Under the pieces are notes generated by a model that saw only the letters and a list, made by a program, of their open reading frames with translations, made no database searches and was not told the origin of the DNA. A stretch of DNA of 64,000 nucleotides from an uncultured Flavobacteriaceae bacterium (GTDB lineage Bacteria; Bacteroidota; Bacteroidia; Flavobacteriales; Flavobacteriaceae): assembly GCA_937959395.1 (NCBI GenBank), contig CALGLR010000035.1:1-64000 (forward strand). Reading direction: 5' to 3'. Shown piece after piece: positions 1,854-55,917 of this stretch (its first letter is position 1; every line of letters begins with the position of its first letter). Made by a program: the position numbers and the translations under genes.

Positions 1854-1907
1854 TTTATCGATTAAATACGTTTTTATTAGCTTAATTGCATATTTATATT
1901 ATATTTG
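1854..1907 (+). promoter_or_regulatory. Shared promoter-operator of the 8-TM family, copy A
   Basis: A 54-bp element begins TTTATCGATTAAA and ends in the -7 box TATATTTG (1900-1907). The first box ATCGATTA is at positions 4-11 of the element and a degenerate second box TTAGCTTA at 24-31, where a -33 element would normally sit. The same arrangement, without any gap, is found before two operons of the paralogous cluster about 48 kb away. A 7-bp hairpin (CCATTAC/GTAATGG, 1921-1938) follows in the presumed leader. Confidence 0.7.
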
Positions 1908-1944
1908 CCCTTGTGTAAATCCATTACAATAGTAATGGTTAGAA

Positions 1945-2691
1945 ATGTGTCCCGAATACATGAAAAATTTTAAAATAATATTAATTATTACAAGTATTAT
2001 CTGTCTTTTAATCTTCGAGATTAGTTGTAAAAGTATAGGTCTTTTTCACATTGCAGATGATGTGCTCCCTATTCCTTCTATAATTCTTTTTCTATATTAC
2101 ACATTAGTTTTAAAAGGAAAAAACTTGTTCTTTCTTACTTTTATATTATTAGATACTATATCACTTTCTTTTAACTTTCTTAGTGAGAATAATAATATTA
2201 CTTTTTATGCGTCAATGTGGTTTTCAATTATCTCTTTCATTTGTTTTTTTATTTATATTATAAAAAAGATAGATTCTAAAATACTAATCAAGAAACATTT
2301 ACCGTATGCAATGATACTTAGTGTTTTGGCTATTTACATTGTCTATTCACTTAATAATTCTATTTTTGATAATGAAGAAGAATGGAGTCTACCTATTATT
2401 TTAACTGAAGTATTGTACAATATCACACTTACATCTCTTTTAATCGTTTCTTTTATAAACTATGCTTACAATGATTCAACAAAACAATTGCTTTTACTTC
2501 TATTTTGTATAGGACTTGTTTTTAGCGAAATTATATATGCAGTAATTAATCTTTATGATGCTACCAAATTTATAAATAGTTTTGATGTTATTGTTTCAAT
2601 TCTGTTTTTTGCAAGTTATATTTCATTGACTTTCTATTTAAATTCTGGTTCAGATAAAACAAACGAAACATTAAATTCAGTTCAGAATTAA
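1945..2691 (+). CDS. 8-TM membrane protein, orphan member of expanded family
   Basis: This is an almost wholly hydrophobic protein of 248 residues with about eight predicted transmembrane helices and a short polar tail. It belongs to the same family as the six genes at 47.8-53.0 kb. Shared marks are the acidic residue in the third helix (LLDTISLSFNF), the FINYAYNDSTKQLLLLLF segment and the late GLVFSEIIYAV motif. No enzyme motif is obvious; the two acidic helix positions resemble those of YhhN/TMEM86 lysoplasmalogenases, a tentative link. Translation starts at 1945 or, equally likely, at the ATG at 1960 (MKNFKIIL). It is transcribed alone from a promoter shared with its distant paralogs. Confidence 0.75.
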   Translation: MCPEYMKNFKIILIITSIICLLIFEISCKSIGLFHIADDVLPIPSIILFLYYTLVLKGKNLFFLTFILLDTISLSFNFLSENNNITFYASMWFSIISFICFFIYIIKKIDSKILIKKHLPYAMILSVLAIYIVYSLNNSIFDNEEEWSLPIILTEVLYNITLTSLLIVSFINYAYNDSTKQLLLLLFCIGLVFSEIIYAVINLYDATKFINSFDVIVSILFFASYISLTFYLNSGSDKTNETLNSVQN

Positions 2692-46859: not shown

Positions 46860-47774
46860 ATGAAAAGACGTCAATTTATTCAAAAAACATCTGCGGCTCT
46901 AACTCTAGCTACTGTTGCTAATTTTGGATTGCAATCATTTTCAACTGTTTCGAAAACAAAACACATTACTATACTTCACACCAATGATGTTCATAGCCAT
47001 ATTGATGCATTTGCTTCTAACGCAGCAAAAAACGCAAATCTTGGAGGTATAGCTAGACGCGCTACACTTATAGATCAAATAAGAAAAGAAAACCCTAATA
47101 CATTATTATTAGATGCTGGTGACATTTTTCAAGGCACACCTTATTTTAATTATTATGGTGGTGAATTAGAGTTTAAGTTAATGAGTAAATTAAAATATGA
47201 TGCCGCGACTATTGGCAATCATGATTTTGACAATGGCATTGATGGTTTATATGCACAGTTACCTCATGCTAACTTTAGTTTTCTATCTGCAAATTACAAT
47301 TTTGAAAACACCATTTTAAACACTCACGTTAAGCCTTACAAAGTATTCATAAAAGACGGATTAAAAATAGGCGTTTTTGGAATTGGCATTAGATTAGAAG
47401 GTCTTGTAAACTACGAACTTTATAAAGAAACCCAATATCTTGACCCTATAGAGATTACTCAAGATATGACTAGAATACTTAAAACAGAAGAGAAATGCGA
47501 TCTCATTATTTGTTTATCTCATTTAGGATATTATTATAAAAATTCAAAAAAAATTAGTGATATAAAACTAGCTGAAGCCACAAAGGATATTGATTTAATA
47601 ATTGGAGGACACACGCATACTTTCCTACCCAAACCAACAGTTGTTAAAAATAGTGATGAAAAAAATGTATTGGTAAACCAAGTAGGATGTTATGGAATTA
47701 ATCTAGGGAGAATTGATTTCTTTTTAGATAATAATAAAGATAAAACAACAAATGGCACTTCTATAATCGTATAG
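46860..47774 (+). CDS. 5'-nucleotidase metallophosphatase domain, Tat-exported
   Basis: This 304-residue protein begins with a twin-arginine-like signal (MKRRQFIQKTSAALTLAT). The calcineurin-type metallophosphatase domain follows: HTNDVHSH, DAGDIFQGTP, GNHDFDNG, LSHLGYYYK and GGHTHTF supply the two-metal site. It lacks the C-terminal substrate-binding domain, which is encoded by the preceding gene, so the two probably work as a pair in the periplasm on nucleotides or other phosphoesters. The last 14 bp overlap the convergent membrane protein gene. Confidence 0.9.
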   Translation: MKRRQFIQKTSAALTLATVANFGLQSFSTVSKTKHITILHTNDVHSHIDAFASNAAKNANLGGIARRATLIDQIRKENPNTLLLDAGDIFQGTPYFNYYGGELEFKLMSKLKYDAATIGNHDFDNGIDGLYAQLPHANFSFLSANYNFENTILNTHVKPYKVFIKDGLKIGVFGIGIRLEGLVNYELYKETQYLDPIEITQDMTRILKTEEKCDLIICLSHLGYYYKNSKKISDIKLAEATKDIDLIIGGHTHTFLPKPTVVKNSDEKNVLVNQVGCYGINLGRIDFFLDNNKDKTTNGTSIIV

Positions 47775-48558
47775 CAAAATCTTGCATTGCTGCCTTTTGT
47801 TTCTCCACTTCTAATAATCTTTTTTTCTCCAATTCTAAATCTTCGGCTACCAATTGCTTTTGATAGATAAAGCTGAACATAAAATACAATCCTAGAGTTG
47901 TTAATATTACATCCCCTATTTCAAAAATTATACTGGACATAAAAAAATGATTCAAAGTGTATTGCGTATCAGAAAAAATAAAACTTAATGCCATAGCTGT
48001 AAACAAAAAAGATTCTTTTAACCCATCTTGATTAAAAGCTGCAAATGATGTAAAACCTAAAATAATAGATATAAAACAGTACACATAAATTATATATTCT
48101 TGTAAGACTTCATTTATATTACCAATAATTATATTAACAAACACTACTGTAAGAACAATATTTATAAGCAATACAATCATTAAATAAAGATTTGTAATCT
48201 CTTTAAACTTAAATCGTTTTAACCTTAAAAGGCTATAGTAAATTAATCCAAAATAAGCGAACAATAAAAGAAACTGAGGTAAATATTTAAAAAATTGATT
48301 AACTATATATAAATTAGATTCATTAAATGCATTAGCAAATGAAGAAGCAAAAAAGAAAAACACAACAACTTTAAAGAAAGTAGAAATTTTCACTTTGAGG
48401 TAGTAAAAAAAATAAACAAAAAGAGCAACAACTATAAAGCTATCTGTTAAAGTAGCTATAAAATTAGATTGATTTAGTTTTCCAAAAAAACTTATACCAA
48501 CCAACACTAATAGCAATACAAATAAAACCTCTTGCTTTGTTGTTTTTATTAATTTCAT
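47761..48558 (-). CDS. 8-TM family membrane protein, cluster member 1
   Basis: This 265-residue polytopic protein, last of a three-gene operon, is a divergent family member. Motif 2 reads ALSFIFSDTQYTLNHFF: aspartate where most siblings have glutamate, and the nearest match to the SD segment of YhhN/TMEM86 proteins. Motif 1 (SSFANAFNES) lacks an equivalent acid in the same place. It carries an extra charged, helical C-terminal tail of about 25 residues (LELEKKRLLEVEKQK). It starts with ATG, 9 bp from its upstream neighbour. Confidence 0.75.
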   Translation of the reverse strand: MKLIKTTKQEVLFVLLLVLVGISFFGKLNQSNFIATLTDSFIVVALFVYFFYYLKVKISTFFKVVVFFFFASSFANAFNESNLYIVNQFFKYLPQFLLLFAYFGLIYYSLLRLKRFKFKEITNLYLMIVLLINIVLTVVFVNIIIGNINEVLQEYIIYVYCFISIILGFTSFAAFNQDGLKESFLFTAMALSFIFSDTQYTLNHFFMSSIIFEIGDVILTTLGLYFMFSFIYQKQLVAEDLELEKKRLLEVEKQKAAMQDFAIRL

Positions 48559-48567
48559 GATTTATAA

Positions 48568-49317
48568 TTACGATACAAAGACCAACTCTTTATTAGAACT
48601 CTTTTTATCCTTTTTTACTTCAATTATATATTGAAACATAAAATATAGTCCAATACCATTTAAAACCTTAGCCATTAAATTAAACGAAAATTCTGGCAAA
48701 TAATAAGTGTTTATATAATACATAACCTCAGAAAACATAAAACTAAAAGCTACAAAAAGAAAAAGTATAGATTCTTTTTTTCCTTCTTCTATAAAAGTAG
48801 CAAAAGACACAAATCCTAATATAAGCAATACACAAAATTTAACCACAAAAAACACAATTTCAAACTGATCAATCATATTGCCTTTTAACGCGTTAAAAAG
48901 CACTACAACAAAACCAATATTTACCAAAAACACCAGTATTAAGCAAAACCCCATAACACTTCTATAATTAAATGTTTTAAAATTTTTAATTGCTATGCTT
49001 ACAAGTCCGATCATTCCTAAAAGCAAAGAAATAGCATATAATCGATTACACATAAAACCATCATTAAAAGCAGCAAAAAAGCTACTTAAAAAGAATAGTA
49101 ACACTATTAACTTATGAAGCAAAGAGAACTTAGCTCCTTTTATCATACTGTACAACAGAAATATAGGTATTAGAATTATGTTTGCCATTTTTACTGTAAA
49201 ATTAATAGATCCATATTGAGTTAAAAGACTAAAAAAAGCAAGCAAAATCAATGCGCTAACAAACATAATTTGTGGCATACTATTTAACTTGTGTAATTTA
49301 TTCTTTAATGTTTTCAT
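48568..49317 (-). CDS. 8-TM family membrane protein, cluster member 2
   Basis: This 249-residue protein has about eight transmembrane helices. Motif 2 is FSFMFSEVMYYINTYYL; the motif 1 region reads SSFFAAFNDG, like member 1, so members 1 and 2 form a subgroup apart from the other four. The positively charged loop after helix 1 or 2 and the short lysine-rich tail (KKDKKSSNK) suggest a cytoplasmic C-terminus. It lies 30 bp after member 3 and 9 bp before member 1, in one operon. Confidence 0.75.
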   Translation of the reverse strand: MKTLKNKLHKLNSMPQIMFVSALILLAFFSLLTQYGSINFTVKMANIILIPIFLLYSMIKGAKFSLLHKLIVLLFFLSSFFAAFNDGFMCNRLYAISLLLGMIGLVSIAIKNFKTFNYRSVMGFCLILVFLVNIGFVVVLFNALKGNMIDQFEIVFFVVKFCVLLILGFVSFATFIEEGKKESILFLFVAFSFMFSEVMYYINTYYLPEFSFNLMAKVLNGIGLYFMFQYIIEVKKDKKSSNKELVFVS

Positions 49318-49347
49318 GAATATTTTCCTTTTTACAAATTTTAATTA

Positions 49348-50130
49348 TTAAGCATCTTTAACATCTACGGTAGAAAAAAAACCTTTTTCTTTATTTATAG
49401 ATTTTGACATCGATTTTGATTTGTTTCCATATGCAACATATACGACAAGCATTAAAAAGCCTACAGATAGCAATACGGTATAAACCAAATCTAGCAATCC
49501 TTCTCTAGCCATAAAATAATAAGCTGTTTGCACCAATTCTGAAAACACGATACATAAACACGCTATAAATAACAGAAGTGATTTTCTAGTATCATGATAT
49601 AAATAACTTAAAAGAGAAAAAATTAAGACTAAAATTATCGCTAAATTATAAACTGTGGCCAATACATATTCCATCATTGGCATAGAAGCCAATCCATGGT
49701 GCTTTAGCATATTATCTAAAGCATAGATTAAATAAAAGCCAAAAAATATTAGAACAATGGAATGTAAAGAAAAGCGCTTAAATAACAATTTTAAATTTAT
49801 TTTAGAAACAATAAAATAAAGCAATCCGAAATATGATATTATATAAGACAATGTTCCTAAATATATTATAGTCATTCCAAATTTCTTGAGCAATCCATAA
49901 TTAATCGCTAAAAACAATAATACTTCTGCAACCAAAAAAAATAATAGAAAAACGATAAAAAATAAATTTTTATCTTTTATTTTAATGATATAGTACGTTA
50001 GCGACAGCGGAAAAATTAATACCCTTGCATAATCACCAAAAATACCAATATCTATTGTTGCACTAATTAGAAAAATAACACACAACAGCGCTATTATACC
50101 TAATAACAATCCCTCTTTTAAATGTTTCAT
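49348..50130 (-). CDS. 8-TM family membrane protein, cluster member 3
   Basis: This is the first gene of the promoter B operon: 260 residues, eight predicted helices. Motif 1 is FFLVAEVLLFLAIN and motif 2 ACLCIVFSELVQTAYYFM. The helix 6-7 connection reads LLSYLYHDTRKSLLLF, almost unchanged in its siblings. The start is the ATG at 50130. The frame continues to a TTG at 50160, but that TTG is part of the -7 box TATATTTG, so it cannot be translated from this promoter. Confidence 0.78.
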   Translation of the reverse strand: MKHLKEGLLLGIIALLCVIFLISATIDIGIFGDYARVLIFPLSLTYYIIKIKDKNLFFIVFLLFFLVAEVLLFLAINYGLLKKFGMTIIYLGTLSYIISYFGLLYFIVSKINLKLLFKRFSLHSIVLIFFGFYLIYALDNMLKHHGLASMPMMEYVLATVYNLAIILVLIFSLLSYLYHDTRKSLLLFIACLCIVFSELVQTAYYFMAREGLLDLVYTVLLSVGFLMLVVYVAYGNKSKSMSKSINKEKGFFSTVDVKDA

Positions 50131-50157
50131 AAAAGTGTTAATTACATTTACACAATA

Positions 50158-50211
50158 CAAATATACACATTTTATACAATTAAACGAATAAAAATGCTTT
50201 TAATCGATAAA
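50158..50211 (-). promoter_or_regulatory. Shared promoter-operator of the 8-TM family, copy B
   Basis: Read on the minus strand, the element starts TTTATCGATTAAAAG at 50211 and ends with TATATTTG (50165-50158). Box 1 is ATCGATTA and box 2 TTCGTTTA, 20 bp apart. Spacing to the -7 box is identical to copies A and C. TTGTGTAAAT follows the -7 box as in copy A. It drives members 3, 2 and 1. Confidence 0.75.
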
Positions 50212-50350
50212 ATACATGTATATTAAATATAATATCCTATGTGATTTCACAAACAATACACATTACAGAGAGATATAACTTAACAAAAGTTAAATAATTA
50301 AGATTTAAAAAGAAAAAACGCTCTAAGAGCACTATAGCATAGTAAGTAGA

Positions 50351-51106
50351 CTAATCGTCTAATAAATCGATCTCTCTTCGAAGACCGCTACCTTTATTTT
50401 TATACAAAATAAACATTAAGATAAAGAAATACCCCATAACCAAAAATATTGAATACATCTTATTTAACACTTCTAGTTTTTCTATATAATAGTAAGCCAC
50501 CTGTACCAATTCTGAGAAAACAATAAACATACAAGCTAAAAAAAGTAAAAGCGATTTTTTAGTGTCACGATATAGATAATACACAAAAGAAGTAATTAAC
50601 ACTAGAATAAACAATGTATTATATAAAATATCATACATCCAATAGACTAAATTAAAACCTCTTGTTTCCGGCCACAGCATCGAATATATAGAAATAAACA
50701 AGTAAGCTCCAAATGACAATAAAATAATTAAATGTATACGAAAACGCTTAATCACAGGTTTAAAATTCATCTTTTTAAATAAAAAGACAAGCAAACTTAA
50801 ATATGCCAAGCAATAAAAAGGAGTACCCGCATAATAAGCAAAGAACGGATATTTTTCCAAAGTAAAAAAAGCACATTCAGCTAAAGCATAAAAAATTAAA
50901 AATAAAGCAAAATACAATTTATCCTTCCTATTACCAACAATAAAAAAAGCGACTAATAACAATGGAAAAATTAAAACCCGAAGATAAGTAACCAACTTAG
51001 CATATGACATTAATGAGCCATAAACAAAACCAATTACTATTATTAAAAATAGCGTAAGAACAGTACCTTGTATGTATTTTTTATCTTTCACTAAACTATT
51101 AAGCAT
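50351..51106 (-). CDS. 8-TM family membrane protein, cluster member 4
   Basis: This 251-residue protein has eight predicted helices. Motif 1 is FYALAECAFFTLE (Glu77) in helix 3 and motif 2 ACMFIVFSELVQVAYYYIE (Glu199) in helix 7. The helix 6-7 joint is YYLYRDTKKSLLLF. The distance between the two acidic residues is about 120, comparable to the two acidic positions of YhhN-type proteins. Its ATG overlaps the end of member 5 by 8 bp, so the two are translationally coupled. Confidence 0.78.
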   Translation of the reverse strand: MLNSLVKDKKYIQGTVLTLFLIIVIGFVYGSLMSYAKLVTYLRVLIFPLLLVAFFIVGNRKDKLYFALFLIFYALAECAFFTLEKYPFFAYYAGTPFYCLAYLSLLVFLFKKMNFKPVIKRFRIHLIILLSFGAYLFISIYSMLWPETRGFNLVYWMYDILYNTLFILVLITSFVYYLYRDTKKSLLLFLACMFIVFSELVQVAYYYIEKLEVLNKMYSIFLVMGYFFILMFILYKNKGSGLRREIDLLDD

Positions 51107-51827
51107 TTATTAAATTTACTTCTAGATCTATTGATCTTGTTTTATCTCCATAATTAAAATAGAAGAATAAGAAACAAAACCCTACAGTTAACAAAAAAGA
51201 ATAAAGTACGTTAAACAATGACCTTATCTCTACCACATATGCAACTTGAACCAACTCTGACAAAACAATACACAAACAAGCCAAAAAAAGAATTAAAGCC
51301 TTTTTTATGTCATGATATAAATAATTTATTAAAGAAAAGACAAGCACTAAAATGAATAACACATTATACACACTATATAACACATAATCAACAAGTTTAT
51401 TATCACTTATTTCAGATTCAGGTAATTCATCTAAAGCAAACAATAAATACCCACCAAACAAAAACAATATTATTAAATGTATAGGAAATCGTTTCAAAAT
51501 TTTAGAAAACTGCATTTTAAAAAGAATAAAAGTCAACATAAACCCATAAGCAAAACTATAAGACACATTACCAACGTAATAAGATAAATCTGAATAATCT
51601 AGATAGAAAAATGTAGTTTCTGCTATTGAATAAAAAACCAAAAACAAAGCAATTAAAAGGCTCTTATTTGCCTTCCTAGTGTAATAATAAACTAACAACG
51701 AAGGCACCACGAAAGATCTAACATATTCAGAAATAGAATCATAACCAAACATGACACACCCTAAATACACCAAACAAGTGAGGAAAAATATTACTATTGT
51801 TATTTTGTTTAAATAAAGCTTCATCAT
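51099..51827 (-). CDS. 8-TM family membrane protein, cluster member 5
   Basis: This 242-residue protein has eight predicted helices. Motif 1 is FYSIAETTFFYLD and motif 2 ACLCIVLSELVQVAYVVE; the helix joint is NYLYHDIKKALILF. It begins with two ATG codons (MMKLYLNK); the first overlaps the stop of the small upstream ORF (TAATG). It is the second gene of the promoter C operon and most similar to members 3, 4 and 6. Confidence 0.78.
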   Translation of the reverse strand: MMKLYLNKITIVIFFLTCLVYLGCVMFGYDSISEYVRSFVVPSLLVYYYTRKANKSLLIALFLVFYSIAETTFFYLDYSDLSYYVGNVSYSFAYGFMLTFILFKMQFSKILKRFPIHLIILFLFGGYLLFALDELPESEISDNKLVDYVLYSVYNVLFILVLVFSLINYLYHDIKKALILFLACLCIVLSELVQVAYVVEIRSLFNVLYSFLLTVGFCFLFFYFNYGDKTRSIDLEVNLINA

Positions 51828-51994
51828 TAATCAAATTTTGCGATTTGAATAAATTTTACACTAGCCAGGATTAAAAAACAAAGAAACAGAACCATAACAA
51901 AACGTTCCTTTAACAAAAGAAACACATTAAACAAATACTGCATCACAAAAAGGAGCAGAAATAAAGTTATAACCGTTGTAAAAATCGTCTTCAT
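51827..51994 (-). CDS. 55-residue membrane mini-protein, first in operon
   Basis: This short gene starts with ATG at 51994 and stops at 51829-51827, sharing a base with the next start codon (TAATG). The protein has two hydrophobic stretches (about 5-27 and 32-50) joined by KERF, so it could be a two-helix hairpin in the inner membrane. It is not a fragment of the neighbouring family by eye. The position directly behind the shared promoter and the coupled stop/start support translation. Function unknown; it may also serve only as a translated leader. Confidence 0.6.
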   Translation of the reverse strand: MKTIFTTVITLFLLLFVMQYLFNVFLLLKERFVMVLFLCFLILASVKFIQIAKFD

Positions 51995-52022
51995 TGGGGC
52001 GTAGATTTAATATTTACAAAAG

Positions 52023-52076
52023 CAAATATACAATAAAATTACATATAATCGATAAAAATTACTTTTAATCGATAAA
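52023..52076 (-). promoter_or_regulatory. Shared promoter-operator of the 8-TM family, copy C
   Basis: On the minus strand the element starts TTTATCGATTAAAAG at 52076 and ends TATATTTG (52030-52023). Here both boxes are perfect: ATCGATTA at 52073-52066 and again at 52053-52046, exactly 20 bp apart, the second covering the usual -33 position. It precedes the 55-codon ORF and members 5 and 4. Confidence 0.78.
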
Positions 52077-52209
52077 ATCGTCGTGTTATGATATATTATC
52101 AGTAGAAGGTAAACATGATTTACTCAAATAAAACGCATTAAAGTATCCTAGGAAAGCAAAATTAATAAGATAGAAAGCTATTTAAAAATTAATTTAAAGC
52201 AGAATAATT

Positions 52210-52956
52210 TTATAATGACTTTATTTCTAATTCGGTTTTCATTCCCTCCGAAGAAGATATAGATTTTGTGTTTTTATCATGGTTTACATAAAGAAAAACA
52301 AACAAAAATCCTGAAAACAAAAATAAAGAACATATAACATTAACTATATCGTGTTGTTTCAAAAAATAATACGCGAGTTGAGTAAATTCAAAAAAAACGA
52401 TAAACAAACAAGCGATAAACAAAAGTAAGGCCTTTGTAATATCATGATACAAATAGTTCAAAAATGACACAATTAGAACTTTAATAATCAAAATGTTATA
52501 TAAATTTTCAAGAAAAAAATCTAGCAATGGCAACTCTCCAAAATTCTCATTAATTATATTATTCAATATATAAAAAGTATAACTACCAAACAATAATAGT
52601 ATTATTAAATGCGGCGTAAATCTTTTAAATAATTCTTTCATATTAATTTTCAAAAACATAAAAGCCAACAAACTTGAATAGGAAATAATATAACAAACTA
52701 AAGAAAATATATTAGCAAATTCTCGAAATTCTATGTAATAAAACACTGTAGTCTCTGCAAGCATATAACCCAAAAGAAACAAGAGAAATAAGGGATTAGT
52801 CTTTTTTCCTCTAAAAAGATAGTACGTACATAATACCAAAAAAGAGAACGCTCTAGAATATTTTGTATAGTCAGATTTAAATAGGATTCCAGATACCAAA
52901 TATCCTAAACCCAGAAGGAGTAATATTACCGCTATTATTCGTTTATTTGTTATCAT
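52210..52956 (-). CDS. 8-TM family membrane protein, cluster member 6
   Basis: This 248-residue protein has eight predicted helices. Motif 1 is GYMLAETTVFYYIEF and motif 2 ACLFIVFFEFTQLAYYFL, where the usual SE is FE. The joint NYLYHDITKALLLF is conserved. It is transcribed alone. Unlike its siblings it has no ATCGATTA promoter copy; instead an array of thirteen 8-bp repeats lies 67 bp upstream. A degenerate -7 sequence TGATTTTG may serve as its promoter. Confidence 0.76.
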   Translation of the reverse strand: MITNKRIIAVILLLLGLGYLVSGILFKSDYTKYSRAFSFLVLCTYYLFRGKKTNPLFLLFLLGYMLAETTVFYYIEFREFANIFSLVCYIISYSSLLAFMFLKINMKELFKRFTPHLIILLLFGSYTFYILNNIINENFGELPLLDFFLENLYNILIIKVLIVSFLNYLYHDITKALLLFIACLFIVFFEFTQLAYYFLKQHDIVNVICSLFLFSGFLFVFLYVNHDKNTKSISSSEGMKTELEIKSL

Positions 52957-53338
52957 GTCACTATTATTAAAAAATGGCCCAAAAAGCCAATTAACAAAAT
53001 CAATAGTTATTTAAGATAAAAAGCATAATCGCATAATCGCATAATCGCATAATCGCATAATCGCATAATGGAATAATCGCATAATGGAATAATCGCATAA
53101 TGGAATAATCGCATAATGGAATAATTAAAATCTGAAAACGTTTTATAAACAATAACTTCATTTAAAAACCCAATAAGACTAAAATTAGTTCTTTAATAAC
53201 TAATCTATCTATTTATGCTTAAAACAATCTTGCACAAATTAATACACATTACAAATGTAACAAAAAAATGTATTTAAACAAACAAAAAACACACTTTATC
53301 GTTATAAATTGAATTTTTTGTAAGAAAAAACTTTAATT
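52957..53338. other. Gap between member 6 and ligA
   Basis: This 382-bp stretch has no gene. It holds the 8-bp tandem array at 53023-53126. The rest is AT-rich sequence with no stable hairpin or clear terminator for ligA. Confidence 0.6.
53023..53126. repeat. 8-bp tandem repeat array (13 units)
   Basis: Thirteen head-to-tail octamers: five GCATAATC, then four alternating pairs of GCATAATG and GAATAATC (last unit GAATAATT). The change from a simple to a 16-bp higher-order pattern shows two rounds of expansion. On the strand of the downstream gene the simple units read GATTATGC, repeating CGATTATG, similar to the ATCGATTA operator box of the sibling promoters. Confidence 0.92.

Positions 53339-55917
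<2,579 letters not shown>

Follow-up and report, generated by a model that had tools for sequence, protein, structure and literature searches.

Family Genes and Operator-Promoter Copies in the Window

The window is a 64,000-bp stretch of a contig from an uncultured Flavobacteriaceae bacterium. A profile search of the 4.32-Mb genome found seven members of one membrane-protein family, all of them inside the window: one on the plus strand (1960..2691, with its ATG at 1945 or 1960), the other six being encoded on the minus strand within 47761-52956. Judged from the gene order, these genes likely form four units, each headed by one operator copy. The first unit holds the plus-strand gene. The second contains three genes, of which the first (49348..50130, minus strand) has an AlphaFold model with a pLDDT of 90 and a lysoplasmalogenase fold, and the others (48568..49317 and 47761..48558, both minus) are of the FamB type. 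The third begins with a 55-codon hydrophobic ORF read from the sequence (51827..51994, minus), followed by the family genes 51099..51827 and 50351..51106 (both minus, from the profile search), the latter overlapping the end of the former. The stop codon of the ORF overlaps the next start codon (TAATG), which suggests translational coupling. The fourth unit carries the family gene 52210..52956 (minus), recovered by the profile search. The cluster adjoins ligA, encoding NAD-dependent DNA ligase (53339-55333, minus). In several relatives (e.g., loci L023, L025, and L026), the family gene likewise has a ligA-like sequence on its 5' side, so that the neighborhood looks ancestral.

A sequence-only reading of this DNA had proposed that a 54-bp promoter-operator occurs in three copies, and these copies indeed aligned without gaps over 54 bp, with pairwise identities of 41, 38, and 40 of 54 positions. 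Copy 1 (1854..1908, plus strand; sequence-model E-value 6e-8) has box 1 at 1857, box 2 at 1877, and the −7 element TATATTTG at 1900-1907. In copy 2 (50157..50212, minus; E-value 1.2e-11), box 1 starts from 50208 and box 2 from 50188, with TATATTTG at 50165-50158; the corresponding positions in copy 3 (52022..52077, minus; E-value 1.5e-10) are 52073, 52053, and 52030-52023. As the reading had described, ATCGATTA, the second box at +20 bp, and TATATTTG stand in the same register in copies 1-3. Some details were amended. The downstream sequence TTGTGTAAAT is common to copies 1 and 2 but shifted by one base, and of the three units called distant, one is (48 kb), whereas the other two are adjacent, their operators being 1.9 kb apart. 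Moreover, a fourth, weaker copy had been overlooked at 53251..53307 (minus; E-value 0.0014), 5' of 52210-52956, which reads AACGATAAAGTG ... TTTGTTTAAATAC ... TACATTTG. Between this degenerate copy and its gene lies a tandem array of ATAATCGCATAATGGA and 8-bp GCATAATC units (53023-53125), which stretches the leader of 52210-52956 to about 295 bp.

When the proposed pattern ATCGATTA-N12-WTMGNTTA-N15-TATATTTG was searched in the whole genome, three exact matches were obtained, all before family genes, together with one extra place with three mismatches; the reversed control of the full pattern gave no match in the same genome. Between the head proteins of the three units, identity is only about 24-40%, yet the boxes are kept.

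Conservation of the Box Pair in Flavobacteriaceae

To define the element more precisely, 84,980 species genomes were scanned with a family alignment built from a closer set of members, which yielded 80 homologous loci. Those with a genus in the title belong to Flavobacteriaceae, among others Winogradskyella, Psychroserpens, Gelidibacter, Mangrovimonas, Bizionia, Hanstruepera, Formosa, and Hyunsoonleella. In the homologous promoters the conserved box is TATCGATWAAATGY, and the element consists of two 9-bp boxes, ATCGWTWAA, arranged as a direct repeat with a pitch of 20 or 21 bp. The box pair was present upstream in 77 of the 80 loci, and one of the three others (L104) ends at a contig edge just inside the element. 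The 20-bp pitch reported before holds for the three window copies, but the homologs mostly have 21 bp (52 of 77, against 25 with 20 bp). Box 2 mostly starts 24-26 bp 5' of the −7 element TAnnTTTG.

The occurrence of the pair at the homologous loci was far above chance. At a score of 20 or more, the pairs located outside the query promoters in about 1 Mb of this DNA all read either as the promoter of a second member of the family or as reverse-strand matches, and the reverse-strand matches fell almost exclusively on the same site. Apart from two pairs at 31-32 bp, no other pitch occurred, and the reversed matrix found no pairs. An alternative reading as a palindromic operator around ATCGAT was abandoned, because conservation covers the direct repeat but not the upstream arm. 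The paired signal is kept before the same genes in dozens of marine bacteria, and because the boxes stay constant while the flanks differ across genera, common descent alone is not a sufficient explanation.

Promoter Architecture

The sequence TAnnTTTG is the −7 element of flavobacterial sigma-A promoters (PMC9723704), and it was present in 68 of the 80 upstream regions. As in the sigma-A promoter outlined there, it has a fixed position ahead of the start codon. The two differ further upstream: a TTG 17-23 bp from the −7 element was found in only 6 of the 68 family promoters, which is background level, given 12% when every TAnnTTTG of the same DNA is counted. The −33 element is thus missing, and its expected position is occupied by box 2. 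This layout is that of an activator substituting for a weak −35/−33 element, and the regulator would most likely activate sigma-A RNA polymerase.

LytTR-Like Features of the Operator and a Candidate Regulator

LytTR proteins bind 9-bp direct repeats that are mostly 12 bp apart, with a minority at 11 or 13 bp, and the published sites sit just upstream of the promoter, one example being ACCGCTTAT with a 12-bp spacer (as given in the excerpts of PMC6193735). Here the spacer between the boxes is 11 or 12 bp, within the rule of 11-13 bp, and the operator lies just upstream of or over the −35/−33 region, as in LytTR-type operators. The published box ACCGCTTAT and the box ATCGTTTAA of this study have CG and TTA in a common register (PMC6193735). 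In the operators of HdrR, BrsR, and related systems, as excerpted, the same two 9-bp direct repeats, 11-13-bp spacer, and nearness to the promoter are found (PMC6193735). The present system departs from those described there in that box 2 covers the −33 position of a Bacteroidota promoter, in its set of targets, and in its candidate regulator, a REC-LytTR protein that is unlinked and whose own promoter has no site.

The source genome gave 13 LytTR hits, none of them on the contig of the window, which led us to discard a local regulator near the family cluster. LytTR proteins were then compared among twelve genomes, some taken only in part. One group stood out, that of a REC-LytTR response regulator encoded beside rpsF and priA (G000:C9:43979-44671 in the source genome). 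Its members were 90-96% identical in the site-rich genomes of this comparison (91-100% in the genomes with the most sites) and 63-65% in two more, and no ortholog above 40% identity was present in the site-free genomes G022, G025, G027, and G035. None of the other LytTR groups of the source genome showed this pattern in the twelve genomes sampled. The gene adjoined rpsF and/or priA in all 27 genomes carrying the ortholog.

Among 60 genomes, at least four sites were found in 25 of the 27 with the ortholog (at least 59% identity) vs. 2 of the 33 without it (Fisher p 2e-12), in a test that ignores phylogeny and compares LytTR proteins as the only class, so that any gene distributed like the candidate would score equally. 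Within the same bacterial family, the counts were 25 of 27 and 1 of 10. The exceptions were G002 (81% complete; 19 sites) and G038 (eight sites), which have sites but no ortholog found, and G020 and G032, which have the ortholog but one site each. Autoregulation is common in LytTR regulatory systems, though not required of response regulators. In nearly all genomes with the ortholog, the promoter of the candidate gene itself had no good site (low scores). On the basis of its co-occurrence with the sites, the rpsF-priA REC-LytTR protein is the best candidate regulator.

Sites Before Genes Outside the Family

The sequence model of the site was also run beyond the family genes, and further sites appeared in most family-bearing genomes; the many weaker matches in the source genome are probably due to chance. 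Several non-family sites recur at orthologous genes in several genera. The gene gldK, first of the gldKLMN operon, belongs to the core of type IX secretion and gliding. It had a site in seven genomes, including the source genome, and the protein at L217 was confirmed by TIGR03525. A TPR hybrid histidine kinase with a receiver domain, encoded between gapA-like and lpxK-like genes, had a site in five genomes representing five genera (L295:1119-3350, minus, and L296-L299), 27-36 bp 5' of the start codon. A SixA-like histidine phosphatase gene, divergent from genes for secreted proteins, carried a recurrent site, and so did a 148-149-aa secreted protein, a small cysteine-rich protein, and an M15 dipeptidase region. 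The remaining targets include proteases, lipoproteins, and secreted proteins, a few with type IX sorting or SprB/PKD features.

These results indicated that the regulon is wider than the paralog family. The earlier proposal of one operator for unlinked paralogs fits the evidence, but its scope was too narrow, as recurring non-family genes carry the box pair too. At the kinase and SixA-like genes, the site is found 1-36 bp away from the start codon, in an orientation facing away from the gene; this fits poorly with simple activation, and the effect of the site there may differ. In genome G014, in which the family search found no member, strong sites were observed at L045 and L058; the genes that they precede encode a lipoprotein and a membrane protein whose C-terminal part is helix-turn-helix-like.

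Predicted Fold of the Family Proteins

The family had no accepted Pfam match, and 32 members gave no YhhN match at an E-value of 1. The proteins are predicted to have eight helices. For the model with a pLDDT of 90.2, the best structural match, obtained from a viral library, was a viral lysoplasmalogenase (E-value 2.9e-6, TM-score 0.66), and the model of the second subfamily, FamB (pLDDT 78.9), had the same top match, though weak (E-value 0.012). Among solved structures, fold searches retrieved nothing beyond weak rhodopsin/GPCR matches, and a sequence profile searched against the PDB gave only weak matches to the GABA-B receptor. The GD and SD motifs are required for the activity of TMEM86 (abstracted in PMC11994398). 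These catalytic aspartates are retained in L036 and L037, and FLGD and FSD motifs are kept in some FamB members. The likeness to YhhN/TMEM86 lysoplasmalogenases comprises the predicted 8-helix fold and, in some FamB members, the FLGD and FSD motifs; unlike those enzymes, the family lacks a Pfam assignment, and E stands in place of the catalytic aspartates in most members, mostly in FamA. Going by the models, the proteins are best called lysoplasmalogenase-fold proteins, with no activity assigned.

Proposed Regulatory Model and Alternative Explanations

The 54-bp element probably serves as operator-promoter in a LytTR-type regulon with surface and type IX secretion (T9SS) targets, and the likeliest regulator is the rpsF-priA REC-LytTR protein. 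The LytTR-type operator with same-direction boxes suggested by the sequence-only reading is supported by the conservation at 77 of 80 loci, the spacing, the missing −33 element, and the co-occurrence with a LytTR group. From these data we infer binding, activation, the identity of the regulator, and its physiology as follows. The response regulator would bind, probably as a dimer, to the two ATCGWTWAA direct repeats across their 11- or 12-bp spacer, with both boxes on one face of the helix. At the family promoters, the bound protein would most likely activate sigma-A RNA polymerase at TAnnTTTG. The regulon would comprise the 8-helix lysoplasmalogenase-fold family together with gldK, the TPR hybrid histidine kinase, the SixA-like phosphatase, and secreted proteins. 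Given such targets, its probable role is to tune type IX secretion/gliding and the cell surface.

The identity of the DNA-binding protein leaves room for two unlikely alternatives. The operator could be of LytTR type but bound by another, or by several, of the 13 LytTR hits of the genome; the box logic would be the same, and G002 and G038 have sites without the candidate. However, among the twelve genomes compared, the remaining LytTR groups of the source genome are also found in site-free genomes or are absent from site-rich ones. AraC-type sites are also built from two direct repeats, spaced by about two helical turns and with the one nearer the promoter over −33, a description that also covers the present boxes. 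A non-LytTR activator of 21-bp-pitch direct repeats over −35, of the AraC/XylS type or another response regulator, is nevertheless just as doubtful: published LytTR boxes are matched by the 9-bp box, in which CG and TTA stand in register, and in a comparison that covered LytTR proteins, one of their groups co-occurred with the sites.

The other two explanations are far less probable. The presence of gldK and secreted proteins among the targets would agree with a role in the PorX-PorY-SigP pathway, since PorX and SigP regulate type IX secretion genes in Porphyromonas (PMC11320123). We regard this as very improbable, because SigP is an ECF sigma factor whereas the promoters here retain the sigma-A element TAnnTTTG, an ECF-type CGT box being known instead from promoters of several T9SS genes of Flavobacterium psychrophilum (PMC9723704), and PorX has no classical DNA-binding domain according to the excerpted text (PMC11320123). 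The controls described for F. psychrophilum (sigma-54, SM5, and SM6 promoters) and Porphyromonas (PorXY-SigP) share gliding/T9SS targets with the present system but act via sigma factors and promoter boxes, and the excerpts of these sources mention no such direct-repeat operator. Duplication of the genes with their upstream DNA, without any regulator, might account for copies that precede paralogs, six of them clustered. We gave this hardly any credence and rejected it in view of the low identity of the unit-head proteins, the persistence of the boxes across many genera with differing flanks (77 of 80 loci), the pair scan over about 1 Mb, and the recurrent unrelated targets such as gldK.

The LytTR-type regulon therefore stays our preferred reading: one conserved LytTR-family protein most likely docks at the signal conserved before the family and gliding/secretion genes. 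We tentatively raise a broader possibility, rather unlikely as a whole, in which one highly conserved LytTR response regulator would be a master switch of Flavobacteriaceae over the T9SS/gliding core, secreted cargo, its own phosphorelay (the hybrid kinase and the SixA-like phosphatase), and the lineage-specific lysoplasmalogenase-fold family, whose members might be lipid or envelope sensors feeding back.

To our knowledge, little is known about transcription-factor regulons in Flavobacteriaceae. The titles and abstracts of the literature on LytTR proteins with gliding or type IX secretion named no LytTR operator of such genes; this type of control is known, and the regulon is apparently undescribed. 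The analysis provides one candidate regulator, a set of targets with gldK among them, and a defined operator, as well as a first lead on a membrane-protein family without a database name. With a single candidate, a one-gene test would address how surface secretion and gliding are switched.
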